A stretch of DNA of 24,779 bases from a virus, in IMG/VR virus record IMGVR_UViG_3300010430_000431, positions 1 to 24,779 of that record; one strand, given 5' to 3'. Every line of letters starts with the position of its first letter. The stretch's first letter is position 1. Of the stretch, positions 3,458-24,779 are shown one piece after another. The notes beneath the pieces are model-generated. The model ran no database searches. It saw only the letters and a program-made list of their open reading frames with translations, and was not told where the DNA came from. Made by a program: the position numbers and the translations under genes.

Positions 3458-4000
3458 ATGGCGCATTACAAATCAGATCAAGCGGATTCCATCACGGTTC
3501 CTTCCAAAACTTTAGAAAAAGTGTTAGGTGTAAATAGTAGTCGTATAAGACAGCTAACCTCAGAAGGGCTTCTGACAAAATCTACACATGGAAGGTATAA
3601 CCTAATTGATTCTATGACCAGGTATGTTGCACACTTAAAGACAAATAATGAAATCAAGAATAGTGATGATAAAAAGAAAGAAATTGACTATGAGACCGAA
3701 AAGGCTAAACATGAAAAGGCCAAACGAGAAAAAACCGAAATCGAATTGGATCTCATGAAAAACAATGTCCATGAGGCAAAGGTCGTTGAGGATGTTATGA
3801 AAGGTTTTGTGTATAATCTCAGAGCCAAGATCCTGGCCATTCCTTCAACAATGGCGCCAAAGGTTGCAGCTGAAAACGATGTGGCCATAATTAGTGATCT
3901 ATTAAAGGAATCGTGTCACCAGGCATTAATAGAAGTTGCTGACTATAAGCCGGGAAACTTTAAAAGTGAGAAATATACTGAGGTGATTAAAAGTGAGTAG
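3458..4000 (+). CDS. Terminase small subunit, Nu1-like
   Basis: 180 residues, ATG 3458 behind CGGAGGTG. The N-terminal 65 residues form a winged helix-turn-helix (VPSKTLEKVLGVNSSRIRQL, then LLTKSTHGRYNLIDS) as in the lambda Nu1 packaging protein, which binds cos-type DNA and recruits the large subunit. Residues about 70-105 are highly charged and heptad-like (DYETEKAKHEKAKREKTEIE), a probable coiled coil for oligomerisation. The helical C-terminal part should contact the large terminase. The gene overlaps the large-subunit GTG start by 8 bp, consistent with translational coupling. Together they recognise and cut concatemeric phage DNA. Confidence 0.85.
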   Translation: MAHYKSDQADSITVPSKTLEKVLGVNSSRIRQLTSEGLLTKSTHGRYNLIDSMTRYVAHLKTNNEIKNSDDKKKEIDYETEKAKHEKAKREKTEIELDLMKNNVHEAKVVEDVMKGFVYNLRAKILAIPSTMAPKVAAENDVAIISDLLKESCHQALIEVADYKPGNFKSEKYTEVIKSE

Positions 4001-5849
4001 TGTTGAGAGTTATGTTAAAACCCTCAATTTATTTTCTATGATAGCGAAGGCAGCTGCACCACCACCTAATATAACAGTTACAGAGTGGGCCGAGGAAAAC
4101 AGAGTATTATCCAAAGAAGCGTCGGCCGAGCCTGGAAAGTATAGAGTTACAAGAGCTCCATATCAGGAAGAAATCCAAAATACAATAACGGACCCTAAAG
4201 TAACACATGTAATATTAATGACAAGTGCGCAGATCGGAAAAACTGAGATCATGAATAATGCTATAGGTTATTCGATCGACATTGATCCATGTCCTATGCT
4301 GGTCGTTATGCCAACCGAAGCACTGGCCAAAACGTGGAGTAAAAAAAGATTATCTCCAATGTTGAGAGACACACCAATATTACAAGGAAAAGTAGCTGAG
4401 GCGAAATCTCGTGATGGTGAAAACACTATACTTGAAAAGTCTTTCCCTGGTGGATATATAGCAATGGTTGGGGCTAACTCTCCGGTCGGGTTATCGTCAA
4501 GACCGATCAAAAAGATCTTTGCTGATGAGGTGGACAGATTCCCCGCCTCAGCTGGTGACGAAGGTGATCCGATTTCTTTAGCCGAAAAGAGAGCGGCTAC
4601 CTTTTGGGACTATAAATGTATATATGTATCGACACCAACGCAAAGGGGTTTATCCAGGATCGAGAAGGAATATAATGAATCATCAATGGATAAATGGAAT
4701 GTACCATGTCCGATGTGTGGCAGATATCAGCAATATGAATGGGATAGAATTAGCTTTAAAACTGTTCGTATGTCATGCAAGTTCTGTCGTGAGGACTTCA
4801 CGAAATACGAGTGGATGAAGGGCCAGGGCAAATGGATATCAGAACACCCGGAGAGGAAAGCCAAAAGAGGTTTTTCACTTAACGCCCTGGCTAGTCCGTG
4901 GGAATCTTGGGAGAAGATCATTGACAAGTTTCTAAGCGCGAAGGAAAAAGGCAAAGAAGCTTTAAAGACGTTTGTTAATACTTACCTTGGGGAGACCTGG
5001 GAGGATGAAATAGGTGATACGTTGGATCCTGATAGACTCATGTTGCGACGAGAGGAATATCATTCAGAGGTACCGGAAGGAGTTTTGCTTTTAACGGCTG
5101 GTGTTGACGTTCAGGACAACAGACTTGAGCTTGAGATTGTTGGTTGGGGCAAAAACAAGGAATCCTGGGGGATCTATTATAAACAGATTTACGGAGATCC
5201 AAAAAGACCGGAGGTGTGGCAATCTCTGGATACTTATCTAAATAAAACATATGAGTTGCCTAGCGGTAAGAAAATCCCCATTGCGTCGACGTGTATTGAC
5301 TCGGGTTATATTCCTGATAATGTTTACAAATTTACCCGGCCGCGAGAGCATAAAAGAGTTTATGCGATCAAGGGAAAGGGGGGCCCTAAGATAGATCATA
5401 TAGGAAACCACAAGAGAAATAACCGGTATAATGCAGCTCTTTTCTCTATTGGCGTTGATATTGGGAAAGATATATTATTTTCTAATCTGAAACAACCTCC
5501 TCCGGAGGATTCACAACCCTATCCGCCTGGATATTGTCATTTCCCATTAGAAAGAAACCTGGTTTTTAACCGAGGTTACGATCAAAAGTATTTTGAAAGC
5601 TTGTGTTCTGAAAAGAAGATCATAAAATACAAGCAAGGAGAATCCTATACAGCTTGGGTGAAAACAAGGACACGGAACGAAGGTTGGGACATTAGAAACT
5701 ATAATATTGCAGCCCTTGAAATATTAAATCCTAATTTTGAGCAAATTGAAAGAAGCTTGGAAAGGTTAAAGGGTAGTCAATCAGGAGGTGGCGCAAAGAA
5801 TGTAAGAAGGAAAAAGAAGGGCCGTAAGGTTCATTCATCAGGTATTTAG
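3993..5849 (+). CDS. Terminase large subunit, GpA-like
   Basis: 618 residues, GTG start after GAGGTGATT. It is the packaging ATPase and nuclease of the lambda gpA family. A Walker A variant TSAQIGKT lies at 77-84, Walker B IFADEVD at 175-181 and motif III YVSTPTQRG at 211-219. Two cysteine pairs (239/242 and 262/265, CPMC and CKFC) form the zinc-finger insertion seen in this family. The nuclease part begins at TAGVDVQDNRLE (Asp372) and includes CIDSGY (Asp436). The tail beyond 585 is basic and low-complexity (KNVRRKKKGRK). The length is normal for the family. GpA-type terminases usually go with cos packaging, so cohesive ends are likely. Confidence 0.96.
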   Translation: MSSVESYVKTLNLFSMIAKAAAPPPNITVTEWAEENRVLSKEASAEPGKYRVTRAPYQEEIQNTITDPKVTHVILMTSAQIGKTEIMNNAIGYSIDIDPCPMLVVMPTEALAKTWSKKRLSPMLRDTPILQGKVAEAKSRDGENTILEKSFPGGYIAMVGANSPVGLSSRPIKKIFADEVDRFPASAGDEGDPISLAEKRAATFWDYKCIYVSTPTQRGLSRIEKEYNESSMDKWNVPCPMCGRYQQYEWDRISFKTVRMSCKFCREDFTKYEWMKGQGKWISEHPERKAKRGFSLNALASPWESWEKIIDKFLSAKEKGKEALKTFVNTYLGETWEDEIGDTLDPDRLMLRREEYHSEVPEGVLLLTAGVDVQDNRLELEIVGWGKNKESWGIYYKQIYGDPKRPEVWQSLDTYLNKTYELPSGKKIPIASTCIDSGYIPDNVYKFTRPREHKRVYAIKGKGGPKIDHIGNHKRNNRYNAALFSIGVDIGKDILFSNLKQPPPEDSQPYPPGYCHFPLERNLVFNRGYDQKYFESLCSEKKIIKYKQGESYTAWVKTRTRNEGWDIRNYNIAALEILNPNFEQIERSLERLKGSQSGGGAKNVRRKKKGRKVHSSGI

Positions 5850-5864
5850 GAGGTGAGCATTATT
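5848..5864 (+). promoter_or_regulatory. Shine-Dalgarno with probable ATT start codon
   Basis: AGGAGGTGA (5848-5856) is followed by two ATT codons at 5859 and 5862 in frame with the DUF6148 protein. The only canonical start, GTG 5853, lies inside the Shine-Dalgarno itself. ATT 5862 sits eight bases after AGGAGG, an ideal distance, and gives a start matching where the family homology begins. Confidence 0.55.
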
Positions 5865-6095
5865 AGCAATATAAGTTATCAAACAGCTATAAGAATGCGT
5901 GATAGTTGGATGAATGCGGAAATGGCTGTACAAAATGGACAGTCCTATAGCATTGGTAACAGATCGCTTACAAAGGCAAATCTATCTGATATTAGAGAAG
6001 CGATTCAATACTGGGATAGGCAAGCAACCAAAGCCCAAAGAAAACAGAAAGGGAGAGGATCTGCAAGAATAAAATTTGTAGTCCCAATGGATTAG
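5862..6095 (+). CDS. DUF6148-family head protein (gpW-like head-tail joining position)
   Basis: 77 residues from the probable ATT start at 5862 (80 from GTG 5853). The core RDSWMNAEMAVQNGQSYSIG, then RSLTKANLSDIREAIQYW, is characteristic of a small phage protein family found between the large terminase and portal genes, the position of lambda gpW. The C-terminal part is basic (KAQRKQKGRGSARIKFVVP). By position and size it probably helps complete the head or join head and tail, although the gpW fold is not shown by sequence. It lies 13 bp after the terminase stop and 3 bp before the portal start. The portal gene lacks a strong ribosome binding site, so portal translation may be coupled to this gene. 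Confidence 0.75.
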   Translation: MSNISYQTAIRMRDSWMNAEMAVQNGQSYSIGNRSLTKANLSDIREAIQYWDRQATKAQRKQKGRGSARIKFVVPMD

Positions 6096-6098
6096 AAT

Positions 6099-7676
6099 AT
6101 GAATGTAATTGACAAAGCCATATCAATATTTGATCCTCAAACAGCACTCAAGAGACAAGTTGCTAGAGCGAAATTAGACATTATAGCTAAAGGTTATTCA
6201 CAACATGGAGCCTCAAGGACCGATAAAGCTTTGAAAGAATGGCCGACAGACTCAGGCAATGTTGACGAGGATATTCATGATAATTTAGATATCCTAGTTA
6301 AGAGATCACGTGATCTCTATTATGGGGCTAATATTGGAACTGGTGCCATAAAGAGCACAAGGACCAACGTAATTGGATCCGGATTGAAATGTAAACCAAA
6401 GATTGATAAAACGGTGTTGAATTTAACTGATGAAGAAGCATTGAAATGGAATGAGAAAACTGAAAAAGAGTTTGCCTTGTGGGGCGATTCAGTACACTGT
6501 GACGCTCAGCGAATGAACAATTTCGGAGAAATTCAACAACTTGCTTTTGTAACATGGTTAGTTGAGGGTGATACTTTCGCGTTATTGCCTTACATCCCAA
6601 GAAAACAACTACCTTATGATCTAAGAGTACAACTAATAGAACCAAGCCGAGTGAGCAACCCGAGCTTTATAGGCCGTGGAGGTAAAGACAAAAATGTAAA
6701 ACGTGGTGTTATCCGCGGGAAGCATGGCGAGGTAGTAGCTTATTACATTGCTAACAGAGAAGGCGAAGGCTACGACAGGACCATTAAACATAAGAAAATA
6801 TGGAAATACGGTAAGGAATCCGGAAGAACTAACGTCGTGCATGCGATGGAGTCCGAAAGAGTTGGACAGGTTCGAGGGCTTCCTTTTTTAACGCCTGTAA
6901 TTAAAAGTATCAAGCAACTTACCAGGTACACCAATGCAGAGATCACAGCTGCGGTTATTGCGGCTTATTTCACTGTCTTTATAGAAAATAAGTCGATGGA
7001 TAGTGGAGGAGCTCTTGGAAGTGAAGGTGGAAACGGTGAGTTTTACGAAGAAGCAGACCAAGACACTGGTGACAATTCAAGCGAACAAGCAGAATATAAA
7101 CTTGGATCAGGGGCCATTATTGAGCTAGAAGAAGGGCAGACGGTTAAAGATGTGAATCCAGGAAGACAGAATTCAAGCTTTGACGCTTTTATAAAGTCAA
7201 TGTGCAACCAAATTGGTGCAGCTCTTGAGATTCCATCTGATATTCTGCTAAAAGCCTTTAATAAATCTTATTCAGCTTCTAGGGCTGCAATGTTAGAAGC
7301 TTGGAAAATGTATAAAATGCGCAGAACCTGGATGGCAAATGATTTTTGTCAACCAATCTATGAGGAGTTTTTAACTGAGGCGATCACCAAAGGGAGAATC
7401 AAGGCACCAGGATTCTTTAGGGATCCGCTGATTAGAAAGGCTTATTGTAATGCTGAATGGATTGGTCCATCACCTGGACAAATTGATCCAGTTAAGGAAG
7501 TTAACGCAGCAATAAAAAGGGTTGATAATGGATTCACTACAAGGGAACAAGAGACAACGGCCCTCAATGGTGGAAGCTTTAGAGACAATATAGAAGCTGC
7601 AAAATGGGAAACGCAGCAAATGAAAGAATCAGGACTCAAGGAGGAAGTTAATGCCGAAAAAGTTTTGGGAAATTAG
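6099..7676 (+). CDS. Portal protein, lambda gpB-like
   Basis: 525 residues, ATG 6099 three bases after the previous stop with only a weak ribosome binding site. It forms the dodecameric ring at the capsid vertex through which DNA enters and leaves. The N-terminal segment ASRTDKALKEWPTDSG, then KRSRDLYYGANIGTGAIKST and TNVIGSGLKCKP, and the later AALEIPSDILLKAF and SASRAAMLEAWKM are typical of the lambda-type portal family. An acidic insertion around residues 300-340 (GGNGEFYEEADQDTGDNSS) looks flexible. The C-terminus overlaps the protease start by 26 bp. The length is normal for the family. Confidence 0.95.
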   Translation: MNVIDKAISIFDPQTALKRQVARAKLDIIAKGYSQHGASRTDKALKEWPTDSGNVDEDIHDNLDILVKRSRDLYYGANIGTGAIKSTRTNVIGSGLKCKPKIDKTVLNLTDEEALKWNEKTEKEFALWGDSVHCDAQRMNNFGEIQQLAFVTWLVEGDTFALLPYIPRKQLPYDLRVQLIEPSRVSNPSFIGRGGKDKNVKRGVIRGKHGEVVAYYIANREGEGYDRTIKHKKIWKYGKESGRTNVVHAMESERVGQVRGLPFLTPVIKSIKQLTRYTNAEITAAVIAAYFTVFIENKSMDSGGALGSEGGNGEFYEEADQDTGDNSSEQAEYKLGSGAIIELEEGQTVKDVNPGRQNSSFDAFIKSMCNQIGAALEIPSDILLKAFNKSYSASRAAMLEAWKMYKMRRTWMANDFCQPIYEEFLTEAITKGRIKAPGFFRDPLIRKAYCNAEWIGPSPGQIDPVKEVNAAIKRVDNGFTTREQETTALNGGSFRDNIEAAKWETQQMKESGLKEEVNAEKVLGN

Positions 7677-11753: not shown

Positions 11754-13196
11754 TTGAATTACAAACACGGTATTTATCCAGGTGAAAACAGTTCACCAAC
11801 AACAACACCGGCCAAAAGCAAAACGGTCCAAGTGGTAATCGGTACCGCGCCGGTACACCTTACCGCTGATCCAAAAGTAAATGTGCCAATCCTGGCGCAT
11901 ACCTTAGAAGAAGCTAAAAAACACCTGGGCTATAGTAAAGATTTCGACAACTTTACTTTATGCGCTGCTATGAAAGTAACCTTTGAGATTTACAAGGTGG
12001 CACCAGTTGTTTTTATTAATGTATTGGATCCAGCCAAACATAAAACGTCAACGACCAAAAAAGAGTTAGCTGTAACAGCTCTGAAAGCAGTTTCAGAAGT
12101 TGGCGGTATCATCACAAGCACAGTGAAGGTTAAGAACTCAGACGGTTCAAAGACCTATGTAAAAGATACAGACTACACGTTGGCATACAATGAGGATGGC
12201 TTATTAGAAGTAACAATTATTGCAGATGGCCAAGCTAAGGACGAAACATCAATTTTCCTTGACTATTCATTTGTAGATATCACAAAGGTTAGTGATTCAG
12301 ACGTTATTGGTGCTTATGAAGCAGCTACAAACTCATATACAGGTATTGAGGTAATCAATCAGATCTACCCAATGTTTTCAGTGGTACCTAGCATTATTTC
12401 AGCGCCGGGCTTTTCACATAAAAATAATATTGCGCGAGCTCTTGAAGCAAAGGCAGCCAATATTAATGAATGCTTTGAGGCTTTTTGTTTCTTAGACGTG
12501 GATCCAAGCCTAAGAGATCATACACAAGTAGAAGCCTGGAAGCTTGCCAATGGTTATAAGAGTGAATTTGCTTACTTGTCTTACTTGAAATACAAAAAAG
12601 ACGGTGTAATTTATTGGGCCAGCACACATAATGCCGCGATCATGCAAAAGGCAGACGCAGAAAACAGCGATGTACCATCTCTTTCAATCTCAAACAGAGG
12701 CCTACAGATCGACGCAACGGTGTTTGATGATGGTACCGAGATATATCTTGAGCAGTCCCAAGCCAACATTTTAAATGGTGCTGGTATTGGAACGGCCATC
12801 AATCAAGCTGGCTTTAAGACCTGGGGGAACAATACAACGGCCTACCCTGAAAAAACAGAAGTTAAAAAGCGCTTTGTTATGTCTAGGAGGATGTTTTCAT
12901 ACATTGGCAATACCTTCATAACAAACTTTACTGAGTTCGTTGACCGAGCGATTGACTATCGTTTGATCGAACATGTTGTAGTAAAAGAAAACATGCGCCT
13001 TAACTCATTAAAAGCTCAAGGCTTTATTGCTGAGGGTTCCATTGAGTTTAGGGAGGACGATAATCCATTAGAAACCATACTAGATGGAAAGATCCAGTTC
13101 ATTACAAAGTTAAGTACCAATGTGCCAGGTAAGGAATGGATCAATATTTTAGAATTCAATCCAAATGGTATATTGGCCAATTTAGGAGGTGAGTAA
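11754..13196 (+). CDS. Tail sheath protein
   Basis: 480 residues, TTG start at 11754 behind AGGAGGCGAG. KHGIYPGENSSPTTTPAKSK and VQVVIGTAPVHL at the N-terminus, and the C-terminal FVMSRRMFSYIGNTFITNFT, then DYRLIEHVVV and GKIQFITKLSTNVPGKEWIN, are typical of the P2 FI-type contractile sheath. Contraction of the sheath drives the tube through the host envelope. An inserted domain at about residues 110-180 (SDGSKTYVKDTDYTLAYNED) is a surface decoration common in sheath proteins. It establishes myovirus morphology and is followed after 2 bp by the tube gene. Confidence 0.95.
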   Translation: MNYKHGIYPGENSSPTTTPAKSKTVQVVIGTAPVHLTADPKVNVPILAHTLEEAKKHLGYSKDFDNFTLCAAMKVTFEIYKVAPVVFINVLDPAKHKTSTTKKELAVTALKAVSEVGGIITSTVKVKNSDGSKTYVKDTDYTLAYNEDGLLEVTIIADGQAKDETSIFLDYSFVDITKVSDSDVIGAYEAATNSYTGIEVINQIYPMFSVVPSIISAPGFSHKNNIARALEAKAANINECFEAFCFLDVDPSLRDHTQVEAWKLANGYKSEFAYLSYLKYKKDGVIYWASTHNAAIMQKADAENSDVPSLSISNRGLQIDATVFDDGTEIYLEQSQANILNGAGIGTAINQAGFKTWGNNTTAYPEKTEVKKRFVMSRRMFSYIGNTFITNFTEFVDRAIDYRLIEHVVVKENMRLNSLKAQGFIAEGSIEFREDDNPLETILDGKIQFITKLSTNVPGKEWINILEFNPNGILANLGGE

Positions 13197-13740: not shown

Positions 13741-14193
13741 ATGAAGAAAGAAAAAGACAATATAGACATTAACAAAGCGGCAAATGCAGCTGCTGAGAAT
13801 GTCGGCTTTAATCTTAACAAGCCAATCGACATTAAAAAGGCCGTGGAGGTCGAGAGCGCAAAAGAAGTTGTGGAGATTGCAACACCACAAGCAGAAGACC
13901 AGGAGAAGGACCTTCTAATCGTTGAGTTAGCAAATCTTTATGTGTTCGACGGTGTAGAATATGAAACCCTTGACTTAACGGGCATTAAAAACCTCACAAC
14001 AACGGACGCGCAAAGCCTTGAAAAAAGATTCTACGGCGGTGGTAACATTGCACCGATCAATGAAATGTCAACAGCCTATACCATGTTTGTTGCCTCAATT
14101 GCTACTAAAATGCCGATTGAGTTTTTTAATGCTTTAAAGATCCAAGACACAGTAAAAGTTAAAAATGCGGTTTCAACTTTTTTGTTGAGTTAG
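13741..14193 (+). CDS. Tail assembly chaperone gpE-like (unshifted product)
   Basis: 150 residues, ATG 13741 behind AAGGAGATC. The N-terminal 60 residues are charged and probably flexible. From about 60 onward (LLIVELANLYVFDGVEYETL, then TDAQSLEKRFYGGG and YTMFVASIATKMPIEFFNAL) it resembles P2 gpE-type tail assembly proteins, which bind the tape measure during tail assembly and are absent from virions. The stop TAG at 14191 follows closely behind a slippery heptamer at 14178-14184, so some ribosomes shift and make a longer protein. It sits between the tube and tape measure genes, as expected. Confidence 0.88.
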   Translation: MKKEKDNIDINKAANAAAENVGFNLNKPIDIKKAVEVESAKEVVEIATPQAEDQEKDLLIVELANLYVFDGVEYETLDLTGIKNLTTTDAQSLEKRFYGGGNIAPINEMSTAYTMFVASIATKMPIEFFNALKIQDTVKVKNAVSTFLLS

Positions 14194-14363
14194 GTTTTTG
14201 TAAAGGCTTTTCAAGGAAGCTCTATAAGCTTTGTGTTTCTGCTGCGCTTGCAACATTTACAAGCATAGAGTATTTCGTGAACTTGTCTATCGAAGACCTA
14301 GCCGACGTGCTAGAGATCATTAAGGAGGTACAGGACGAATCGGCCGGAACAACTACGAAATAG
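13741..14363 (+). CDS. Tail assembly chaperone gpE+E' fusion made by -1 frameshift
   Basis: A -1 shift at T_TTT_TTG (14178-14184) joins gpE to a second open frame that runs to TAG 14361-14363, giving 207 residues in all. The E' part has 59 codons after the slip: GFCKGFSRKLYKLCVSAALA, then FTSIEYFVNLSIEDLADVLE and IIKEV. The E' frame has no start codon or ribosome binding site of its own and would otherwise leave an unexplained gap of 145 bp. P2 uses the same heptamer and layout for gpE+E'. The slippery bases are in exact phase (P-site TTT, A-site TTG). Confidence 0.88.
14178..14184 (+). other. Programmed -1 ribosomal frameshift site T_TTT_TTG
   Basis: In the gpE frame the codons are ACT TTT TTG, so T_TTT_TTG is correctly phased for tandem -1 slippage. 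The gpE stop is only two codons after the heptamer (TTG AGT TAG). A short stem AAGCT/AGCTT further downstream (about 14216-14231) may contribute, but I see no strong stimulatory pseudoknot. Confidence 0.85.
14322..14341 (+). promoter_or_regulatory. Shine-Dalgarno with probable ATC start for the tape measure gene
   Basis: AAGGAGGT (14322-14329) lies inside the E' coding region. The tape measure frame is open from 14324, just after TAA at 14321, and contains no ATG, GTG or TTG until GTG 14450. ATC at 14339 sits nine to ten bases after the Shine-Dalgarno and would start a protein beginning MGRNNYEIAFRLGG, which is where homology to tape measure N-termini begins. Confidence 0.55.
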
Positions 14364-16684
14364 CGTTTAGACTTGGCGGACGATTAAGCTCCTCATTTAA
14401 CCGAAGCTTCTCACAAGCAACTACTACAATAAGAGGGTTAACAAGCACAGTGGCCGGCCTCACGTCGGCCTATGTTGGCTTTCAAACGGTTCAAAAAACA
14501 GCCTCAACCATGTACGAATCATCCACAGCGCTGGAAAGTTATCGAGGCACCTTAAATGTTGTATTAAAGGATCAGGAAAAGGCGGCTAAAATGATGAAGT
14601 GGGCGACTGAGTTCGCCAACTCTACGCCGTTTGAAACTGAATCCATTGTGGAAGCGACTGTAAAGCTAGAAAGTTACGGCCTAAAGGCTATGGACGTCCT
14701 ACCCCGAGTAGGGGACATGGCCGGTGTTATGGGTAAAGATCTGATCCAAGCCGTTGAGGCAATCGCTGACGCTCAGAATGGAGAGCTTGAGCGATTGAAG
14801 GAATTCGGGATCACGAAAAAGAAGATCATTGAGCATGGCAACAAGGCTCTAGGTATGGCGGATCTTGTTAACAAGAAAGGCCAAATCACGAACCAGGAGA
14901 ATTTCAACAAGGCCCTTTTCTCACTAATGGAAACCAATTTCAAAGGTGGTATGGCACAACAAGCCTCAATGCAAAAGGGTTTAATGTCAACTGTAACAGG
15001 TGTTTGGAAATCAGGACTAGCGACAATCTCAGGCGTTAAGGCAACGGGCGAGATCATGGACGGTAGTCTTTTTCACATGCTAAAGGTTAACACGGAGTCG
15101 CTGGTTAAGATCCTGAATCAAGCCAACTCTAATGGTACCTTTGAAATGATTGGCCAAAAGTCAGCGGCCTTCTTCCGCTTCATTGGATCCGGCATTAACT
15201 TTGCCACGGCTGGCATGAAAAAGGTCTTCCCATACATCAAGAAGGGCGGCAAGATACTAGTATCACTTATCAAAGAGACCGGCAAGAACATAAAGAAGCT
15301 CAAACCGGTTATTATGGCCATTGGCGATAAAGTTAAGTGGTTTAAGTCCGTCTTTTCTAATGGCTTTAACAAATCGCGGTTAATCATTGAGGAGAATCTT
15401 CCAAAGTTAAACGCATTTAAAGACAGCCTTATAGACATTGCCATGAAAGGCATTGGGCTAGTAGGCCGCGCCTTTGAATGGGCGCAACCACCTATCGGGT
15501 GGTTAATCGAAAATGGCTTACCACTAGCCATAGAAGCATTTACAAGTATAACGGGTATTGCTAGCGATCTTTACAATCACTTTAGTGATAAATGGTCCCT
15601 AGTTGCGCCGGTGTTTGAAACAATCGGCACCGCTTTACAAAACGGTTTACTCTTTGCCTTTGAACTTGTAAAGCCAATAATTGAGTGGTTAATTACTGAT
15701 GGCTTCCCGATCATGAATGAAATACTATTTGAAGTGATCGACACAGCAGCGGAGCTCTACACATTCTTTGCTGAGAACTGGACAACGATCGAACCTATTA
15801 TTGTCGGTATTACCGGCGCACTGTTACTATACAAGGCTTACATGATCGCCAGTAGTATTGTTACAGCTATCCAGGTCGGACTTATTACAGCCTTAACGGT
15901 CGCCATGAGTGCGCTTAGTACTGTTATCGCAATACTAACATCACCGATCACTCTTGTTGTTGCAGCAATTGCGGCAGTCATTGCCATTGGTTGGCTAGTA
16001 TATAAAAACTGGGACGAGATAATGGCCTGGTTTAAACAAAAGTTTGCAGACTTCATTACCTGGATTAGTCCGGTTACCGATTTCATTTCGAGCGCTTTCA
16101 CCACAGCGTGGGAAACCGTGAAAAGTGTGTGGACTGGCGCTGGCGAGTGGTTTTCTGGTCTATGGTCCGGTATTGGTGAATCCTTCTCAGGTTTTATCAA
16201 TCTATTTTTATCCGGTGTTAACTGGTTGATTGATGGCCTAAACAAGATTCAAATTGACATTCCGGATTGGGTGCCAAACGTTGGCGGCCAAACATTCGGC
16301 CTACAGATCCCTAATATTCCATACCTGGCAACGGGCGGCGTAACAACAGGTCCGACACTGGCCATGATTGGTGAGGGACGAGAACAGGAGGCCGTATTAC
16401 CACTTTCTAAGCTTGAAGGCCTTGTAAGACTTTCTATCCTCAGAGCTTTAAAGATGGACAAGAAAAGTAAAGAGGACTCTATAGGCAGCAGACTAAACCG
16501 TCTAAGTGGTGGATCCAATGTCTTTGTCAGCAACTTCAACATTACAATTGACTATAAACCTAAATTCATCATTGAGGGCAATGCTTCTGAGGAGGATCTT
16601 GTCTCAGCTGCTAAGAAAGGCCATGACGATTTAGAAAAGCGTATGGAGTCAATTCAGATCAAGAAAAAACGATTAAAATTCTAA
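14339..16684 (+). CDS. Tail tape measure protein
   Basis: 781 residues if read from the probable ATC start at 14339 (744 from GTG 14450). Upstream of GTG 14450 the frame encodes NYEIAFRLGGRLSSSFNRSF, typical of the extreme N-terminus of these proteins, so 14450 is too late. A long helical region follows, with the conserved ESIVEATVKLESYGLKAMDV and LKEFGITKKKIIEHGNK segments. Hydrophobic helices lie near GITGALLLYKAYMIASSIV and SPITLVVAAIAAVIAIGWLV. The C-terminal GGVTTGPTLAMIGEGREQEA, then VLPLSK, is a family hallmark. It sets tail length. At about 0.15 nm per residue the tail would be near 115 nm. It overlaps the E' frame by 25 bp. Confidence 0.94.
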   Translation: MGRNNYEIAFRLGGRLSSSFNRSFSQATTTIRGLTSTVAGLTSAYVGFQTVQKTASTMYESSTALESYRGTLNVVLKDQEKAAKMMKWATEFANSTPFETESIVEATVKLESYGLKAMDVLPRVGDMAGVMGKDLIQAVEAIADAQNGELERLKEFGITKKKIIEHGNKALGMADLVNKKGQITNQENFNKALFSLMETNFKGGMAQQASMQKGLMSTVTGVWKSGLATISGVKATGEIMDGSLFHMLKVNTESLVKILNQANSNGTFEMIGQKSAAFFRFIGSGINFATAGMKKVFPYIKKGGKILVSLIKETGKNIKKLKPVIMAIGDKVKWFKSVFSNGFNKSRLIIEENLPKLNAFKDSLIDIAMKGIGLVGRAFEWAQPPIGWLIENGLPLAIEAFTSITGIASDLYNHFSDKWSLVAPVFETIGTALQNGLLFAFELVKPIIEWLITDGFPIMNEILFEVIDTAAELYTFFAENWTTIEPIIVGITGALLLYKAYMIASSIVTAIQVGLITALTVAMSALSTVIAILTSPITLVVAAIAAVIAIGWLVYKNWDEIMAWFKQKFADFITWISPVTDFISSAFTTAWETVKSVWTGAGEWFSGLWSGIGESFSGFINLFLSGVNWLIDGLNKIQIDIPDWVPNVGGQTFGLQIPNIPYLATGGVTTGPTLAMIGEGREQEAVLPLSKLEGLVRLSILRALKMDKKSKEDSIGSRLNRLSGGSNVFVSNFNITIDYKPKFIIEGNASEEDLVSAAKKGHDDLEKRMESIQIKKKRLKF

Positions 16685-24031: not shown

Positions 24032-24247
24032 ATGTTTAAGAAAGTATCAGCATTAATCGAAGTAAGGAAACTGATCGCTTTATCTATTACAGCCATGTTT
24101 ATCGTATTATCTCTCAGGGGCCAAATTGATAACAAGCTGATCGAGTATGTCATTGTTGCAGTAATAACTTATTACTTTGCAAAATCTACAGCCCTGGATC
24201 AACCAGGTGGCAACTTAAAAACTGAGGCGGTGAATTTGAATGAATAG
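24032..24247 (+). CDS. Second small membrane protein of the lysis cassette
   Basis: 71 residues from ATG 24032 behind AAGGAGGT (24017-24023). The longer in-frame reading from 23984 overlaps the previous gene and lacks a site. Two hydrophobic helices are predicted, about residues 14-28 (LIALSITAMFIVLSL) and 37-53 (LIEYVIVAVITYYFAKS), with a polar tail. It may be a second holin, an antiholin or a spanin-like helper. A two-component holin set is common in Firmicutes phages. Its end overlaps the amidase start by 8 bp. Confidence 0.7.
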   Translation: MFKKVSALIEVRKLIALSITAMFIVLSLRGQIDNKLIEYVIVAVITYYFAKSTALDQPGGNLKTEAVNLNE

Positions 24248-24779
24248 ACCTGAATGTATTATCCTACACCACACATTAACAAAAGACGGAGAAGTCAAAG
24301 ACTGGCTAGCAATAAAACGGTATCATGTTTCCTTGGGATGGGGTAACATTGGTTATCATTATGGTATTGAAAATATTAATGGCGATTATGAGATCATGAA
24401 GGGCCGGGCTGAAAAATCCGAAGGCGCTCACACTAAACAAAAAGGCATGAACAGAAAATCAATAGCTATTTGCCTCGTTGGTAATTTTGATCTAGCGCCA
24501 CCACCACAAGAACAGTTAGAAAAATTAAACGAGCTCATCAATGATATTCATGATAGATATGGACCTTTACCAATTTATGCACATAATGATTTTGCAAGTT
24601 ATAAAAGTTGTCCAGGTAAATTGTTCCCGATGGATCAATACAGAAATTACAAACCGGTCTACAACCAATCACATTGGGGCCATGCTGAACATGATTATTT
24701 AATCAATCTCGGCATGGATCTTGACGACGATATGCGACACGATGAACCTATCACACGAGCAGAAGTAAAAGCAATGTTC
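24240..24779 (+). CDS. N-acetylmuramoyl-L-alanine amidase with SLH domain (3' partial)
   Basis: 180 visible residues, cut by the window end. ATG 24240 lies within the end of the previous gene, with GAGGCGGTG upstream. Residues 5-130 are an Amidase_2 (PGRP/T7-lysozyme-like) domain with zinc ligands His10 (ILHHT), His115 (YAHND) and Cys124 (SCPGK). It cleaves the amide between muramic acid and L-alanine. Residues 144-180 (SHWGHAEHDYLINLGMDLDD, then DEPITRAEVKAMF) start an S-layer-homology domain. These usually bind pyruvylated secondary cell wall polymers. Other copies may follow outside the window. It is the endolysin of the lysis cassette. Confidence 0.92.
   Translation, partial: MNRPECIILHHTLTKDGEVKDWLAIKRYHVSLGWGNIGYHYGIENINGDYEIMKGRAEKSEGAHTKQKGMNRKSIAICLVGNFDLAPPPQEQLEKLNELINDIHDRYGPLPIYAHNDFASYKSCPGKLFPMDQYRNYKPVYNQSHWGHAEHDYLINLGMDLDDDMRHDEPITRAEVKAMF

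Follow-up and report, generated by a model that had tools for sequence, protein, structure and literature searches.

An ATC codon conserved among related phages suggests a weak start for a tape measure gene

Near-cognate isoleucine codons are already known as translation starts in bacteria. The infC gene of E. coli starts with ATT and that of Streptomyces with ATC, and starts of this sort are repressed by IF3 (PMC5472188); the near-cognate infC start has been found in several species (PMC5472188, PMC13009471). In infC (AUU/AUC/AUA) and pcnB (AUU) a start of the isoleucine type limits translation (PMC5472188, PMC13009471), as we propose for the locus described here. In S. aureus, cvfC1 (AUU) and ccpN (AUA) have conserved starts with extended Shine-Dalgarno (SD) sequences, and reporters with AUU or AUA gave ~10% of AUG output (PMC13009471). 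An AUC mutant start in B. subtilis allowed low but measurable expression (PMC10303841), and an AUU start has been used in engineered clostridia (PMC11040787). Here, two virion genes of one phage lineage appear to have conserved isoleucine codons as starts. The phage genes resemble cvfC1 and ccpN in combining a conserved non-canonical start with an extended SD; however, cvfC1 and ccpN are host genes with AUU and AUA starts, AUC not being among them, and their starts were demonstrated with reporters and ribosome profiling (PMC13009471), whereas the phage starts are predicted ones. In contrast to the phage virion genes, infC and pcnB are chromosomal regulatory or RNA-processing genes, and infC is autoregulated by its own product, whereas the virion genes have no obvious feedback. 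No report of conserved isoleucine starts in phage structural genes was found in the literature searched, the coverage of which was incomplete.

The DNA analysed (henceforth referred to as the window, that is, the whole stretch of 24,779 bases of an IMG/VR virus record, with a G+C content of 40%) is metagenomic phage DNA and encodes a head and contractile-tail operon. A terminase gene (at 3993), a gpW-like adaptor gene, a portal gene, a ClpP-like protease gene (7651), a capsid E gene (9094), a tail sheath gene, a tail tube gene (13199) and a tail assembly chaperone are followed by the tape measure (TMP) gene, downstream of which lie hub and baseplate genes. An Amidase_2 endolysin gene at 24240-24779 runs off the end of the window, and by eye its C-terminal sequence resembles an S-layer homology repeat. 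Judged by its terminase and its gene order, the window has relatives among the phages of Exiguobacterium, Paenibacillus and Faecalibacterium. Of the annotated phages, Exiguobacterium phage vB_EalM-137, the terminase of which is 50% identical to that of the window, comes closest in gene order between terminase and TMP; unlike in the window, its gpW-like gene and its TMP gene both start with ATG. A scan of genome contigs with the TMP N-terminus found no host or prophage copy, and in 398 sampled genomes of the phylum no high-score match included the TMP N-terminus of the window.

The TMP gene (14339 to 16684, + strand, as for all intervals of the features described below) comprises 781 codons when read from an ATC codon at 14339 to 14341. 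Its product matches many PHROG tape measure families, with values down to 9.4e-24, and Pfam PF20155 (TMP_3) at 3.9e-7, which is under the gathering score. The gene is also placed as a tape measure should be, in that it is large, directly follows a pair of chaperone genes joined by a -1 frameshift and precedes the tail hub genes, the local order being chaperone G, the slippery sequence T TTT TTG, the T frame, TMP, LysM and hub. The TMP frame has a TAA stop at 14321-14323 and is then open from 14324 to 16684, and its first ATG, GTG or TTG is a GTG at 14450 to 14452; the original prediction had described this frame correctly, coordinates included. As had also been predicted, a strong SD precedes the ATC: the octamer AAGGAGGT (14322 to 14329) sits 9 nt upstream and pairs with the anti-SD at -12.5 kcal/mol, compared with -4.1 on average at random positions, of which 1.4% reach -12. 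The octamer occurs three times in the window (0.71 copies expected in shuffles), each time just upstream of a gene start. RNA structure hiding the ATC was considered and rejected, as the folds are no stronger than those of shuffles (z of -0.10 in the window and 0.90 in the related contig L036).

The 37 codons from ATC 14339 encode an N-terminus homologous to that of other tape measure proteins (IGRNNYEIAFRLGGRLSSSF in alignment with MGKEYEIAFKLGAKLESAF), in agreement with the prediction that the stretch before 14450 belongs to the protein. Translation from the ATC begins IGRNNYEIAFRLGGRLSSSFNRSFSQA..., and similarity in the TMP frame starts exactly at the ATC residue, with none upstream of that codon. 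At this homologous N-terminus there is no ATG, GTG or TTG, and an isoleucine codon lies at SD distance. The motif Y-E-I-A-F-[KR]-L-G is common to the N-termini of tape measure proteins that start with TTG, GTG or ATG: in the Paenibacillus phages phiERICV (LGKEYEIAFKLGAKLESAFSKTF, TTG start) and Lily (VGKEYQIAFKLGAQLESAF, GTG start) it lies a few residues from the start. These two phages are like the window in gene order (sheath, tube, chaperone, TMP) and in the N-terminal motif, but their TMP genes start with TTG and GTG where the window has ATC, and identity over the whole protein is ~24%. We considered whether translation might instead begin at GTG 14450, the earliest codon acceptable to gene callers, leaving the 37 upstream codons untranslated in the TMP frame. 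This appears highly improbable, since the GTG has a poor SD (-6.3 kcal/mol at 12-nt spacing) and no counterpart in L036, where the next canonical codon is codon 77, and since the 37 codons are conserved as protein while silent sites are saturated.

The same ATC is found in related phages. In L036 and L062, which are independent IMG/VR contigs, an ATC occupies the same alignment column as position 14339 of the window, at 9302 in L036 and at 4849 in L062, in each case within ATCGGAAGA and with AAGGAG upstream at 8 nt spacing. The reading frames continue ATC GGA AGA AAA GTA AAT TAC GAA in L036 and ATC GGA AGA AAG ACC AAC TAC GAA in L062, and the SD before the ATC is moderate in both (-8.3 and -7.4 kcal/mol, respectively). 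In L036 the TMP frame holds no ATG, GTG or TTG until codon 77; the L062 contig, which comes from a separate metagenome, ends 11 codons into TMP. L036 was found through its terminase (65% identity), as were L031 and L032, with start codons disregarded. A scan of viral contigs for an SD-ATC-GG pattern gave 38 loci, among which the only tape measures were L062 and L065, the latter being the L036 contig; since L062 was found by a pattern that requires ATC, it is uninformative on how often relatives have lost the codon. In ~12 further independent TMP relatives, an ATG, GTG or TTG stands behind a strong SD in every one. The ATC is kept in the three lineages available (the window, L036 and L062), and canonical codons stand at this point in the other relatives examined.

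The conservation of the codon can be set against the divergence of these phages. The TMP proteins of the window and L036 are 55-57% identical (57% over 496 aa from the isoleucine codon), with a four-fold site identity of 0.39 against 0.28 for random. For the sheath, four-fold site identity is 0.36 (random 0.30) between the window and L062, at 49% protein identity, and 0.42 (random 0.37) between L036 and L062, at 67% protein identity. As these values are near random, silent sites are nearly saturated among the three phages: silent positions have changed many times over, and the isoleucine codon has stayed, with ATG one base away. That single base would be all that an error of sequencing or assembly had to alter. 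However, two further assemblies, both diverged, show this ATC too, and three phages have assemblies with the adaptor ATT described below; for one of these phages, separate metagenomes gave three assemblies (L032, L033 and L036) that are 99.98-100% identical. Since the ATC is shared while silent sites are close to random identity, we regard an error as extremely unlikely and the codon as retained. Overall, the conserved ATC suggests an unusual, weak TMP start that is used on purpose.

The start of TMP lies within another reading frame. Within tail assembly chaperone G (13741 to 14193; phrog_3140 tail assembly chaperone, 1.4e-19) lies a -1 frameshift heptamer, T TTT TTG (14178 to 14184; ACTTTTTTG, also in L036 and L062), which yields a G-T fusion. 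The T extension in the -1 frame (14181 to 14362) has homologs in L036 and L062 and reaches 24 bases into the TMP gene, so that ATC 14339 lies inside the T frame. There the codons read GAA TCG in the window and CCA TCG in both L036 and L062, and a swap of ATC to ATG would turn the serine that T has in all three phages into tryptophan; any ATG, GTG or TTG followed by G creates TGG in the T frame. The overlap could therefore explain, or help, the retention of the ATC, which would then be the true start but kept for the T-frame serine codon (TCG), or by drift, rather than for weak initiation. We consider this unlikely, because these phages also conserve the adaptor ATT, which no evident gene overlaps and which the T overlap cannot explain, because the C-termini of T are otherwise variable around the serine, and because other phages of the kind have TTG, GTG or ATG at the TMP start. 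The overlap would also accommodate a second -1 frameshift: the TMP frame lies at -1 with respect to T, and both are open between 14324 and 14362, so that the tape measure could be made as a fusion to G-T and need no start codon. However, the three phages share no slippery heptamer in their overlaps, each has an SD upstream of the ATC, and homologous TMPs have their own start, which leaves a second frameshift with very little probability. We thus rejected GTG 14450 as the start, an error in sequencing and a further frameshift, and the homologous N-termini, the SD and the conservation in L036 and L062 uphold the predicted TMP start at ATC 14339.

The original prediction had placed the TMP start beside an ATT case, giving two late genes with isoleucine start codons in one phage. 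We take the second gene to be the gpW-like head-tail adaptor gene (5862 to 6095), an identification made in the present analysis and not from coordinates given. The gene sits between terminase and portal and matches phrog_118 (head-tail adaptor, 3e-20) and, above the cut-off, PF19645 (DUF6148, 1.7e-10). Its ATT at 5862 is preceded by an extended SD, TAGGAGGTGAG (5847 to 5857), with a pairing energy of -16.1 kcal/mol, tied strongest among the gene starts tested and identical in L031, L032 and L036. The first canonical codon of the frame, GTG 5853, lies inside TAGGAGGTGAG, and lacks its own SD (-3.9 kcal/mol). The ATT is 7 nt from GGAGGT in the window, in L031 and in L032/L033/L036, and is thus conserved at the same spacing across three lineages, which bears out the pairing of a TMP ATC with an adaptor ATT. 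In Faecalibacterium phage Lelie the adaptor homolog has its ATG in the alignment column of ATT 5862, and in the remaining adaptor homologs examined an ATG start lies within a few columns. The portal gene (6099 to 7676; PF05136, 2e-84) has an ATG start 3 nt after the adaptor stop and no recognisable SD (-3.1 kcal/mol; junction at 6093-6110), and the junction is alike in L031, L032 and L036. The portal is therefore probably translationally coupled to the ATT-started adaptor, and a weak ATT may throttle both genes.

To place the two genes among other gene starts, we surveyed the window, L036, L031, L032 and L062. Nearly all genes have ATG, GTG or TTG options, and the adaptor and TMP genes are the only two consistently without. 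The tail sheath gene (11754 to 13196; phrog_23, 1.1e-56) starts with TTG in all three phages (window 11754, L036 6729, L062 2282); since the sheath is a high-copy protein and keeps this conserved TTG, start strength is not simply tied to copy number. A general rule of weak starts for tape measures was rejected: in a Paenibacillaceae sample of 30 fetched loci, TMP genes start mostly with ATG, the commonest codon, and ~1/3 start with GTG, TTG or CTG, a mild tendency at most. One TMP gene of that sample (L142) has an apparent CTG start (aagaggtgatttaaCTGTCTGGTAAA) directly after an in-frame stop, where its homologs have ATG.

Overall, the observation that the TMP gene has no ordinary start codon and begins with ATC is confirmed at the level of sequence, and its original interpretation appears largely to hold. 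Given an open frame, an SD, a homologous N-terminus and isoleucine codons (ATC and ATT) conserved from lineage to lineage, all of which the sequences show, we consider it likely that TMP is translated from ATC 14339 by weak fMet initiation, rescued by the SD and under selection, probably for low dosage. We infer fMet initiation, IF3 sensitivity, lowered output and purpose as follows. The strong SD would position the 30S subunit at ATC 14339, where initiator fMet-tRNA would pair with AUC with a mismatch at the third position, and the first residue of the protein would be methionine. IF3 would discriminate against the fMet-tRNA/AUC complex, because of which initiation would be slow and output a fraction of the AUG rate. 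Selection would retain the TMP ATC together with the adaptor ATT in the phage lineage, most likely with the purpose of holding down virion proteins needed in few copies (the tape measure, the adaptor and, via coupling, the portal). All three of these are ring or axis proteins of low copy number, which fits such a role. Dampened expression of low-copy proteins by isoleucine starts, as originally suggested, is thus plausible, and a function of these starts as a dosage device seems likely.

The finding may bear on gene annotation as well as on phage assembly. Callers limited to ATG, GTG and TTG would shorten TMP by 37 residues in the window and by 76 in L036, and would start the adaptor at a GTG inside its own ribosome-binding site. 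We tentatively suggest, with slightly less than even confidence, that the lineage uses ATT (adaptor with coupled portal) and ATC (TMP) with strong SDs as a conserved device for low-copy dosage, possibly making late assembly responsive to host IF3 levels. If true, the late operons of phages would gain a further means of setting dosage, namely conserved isoleucine starts in virion genes.
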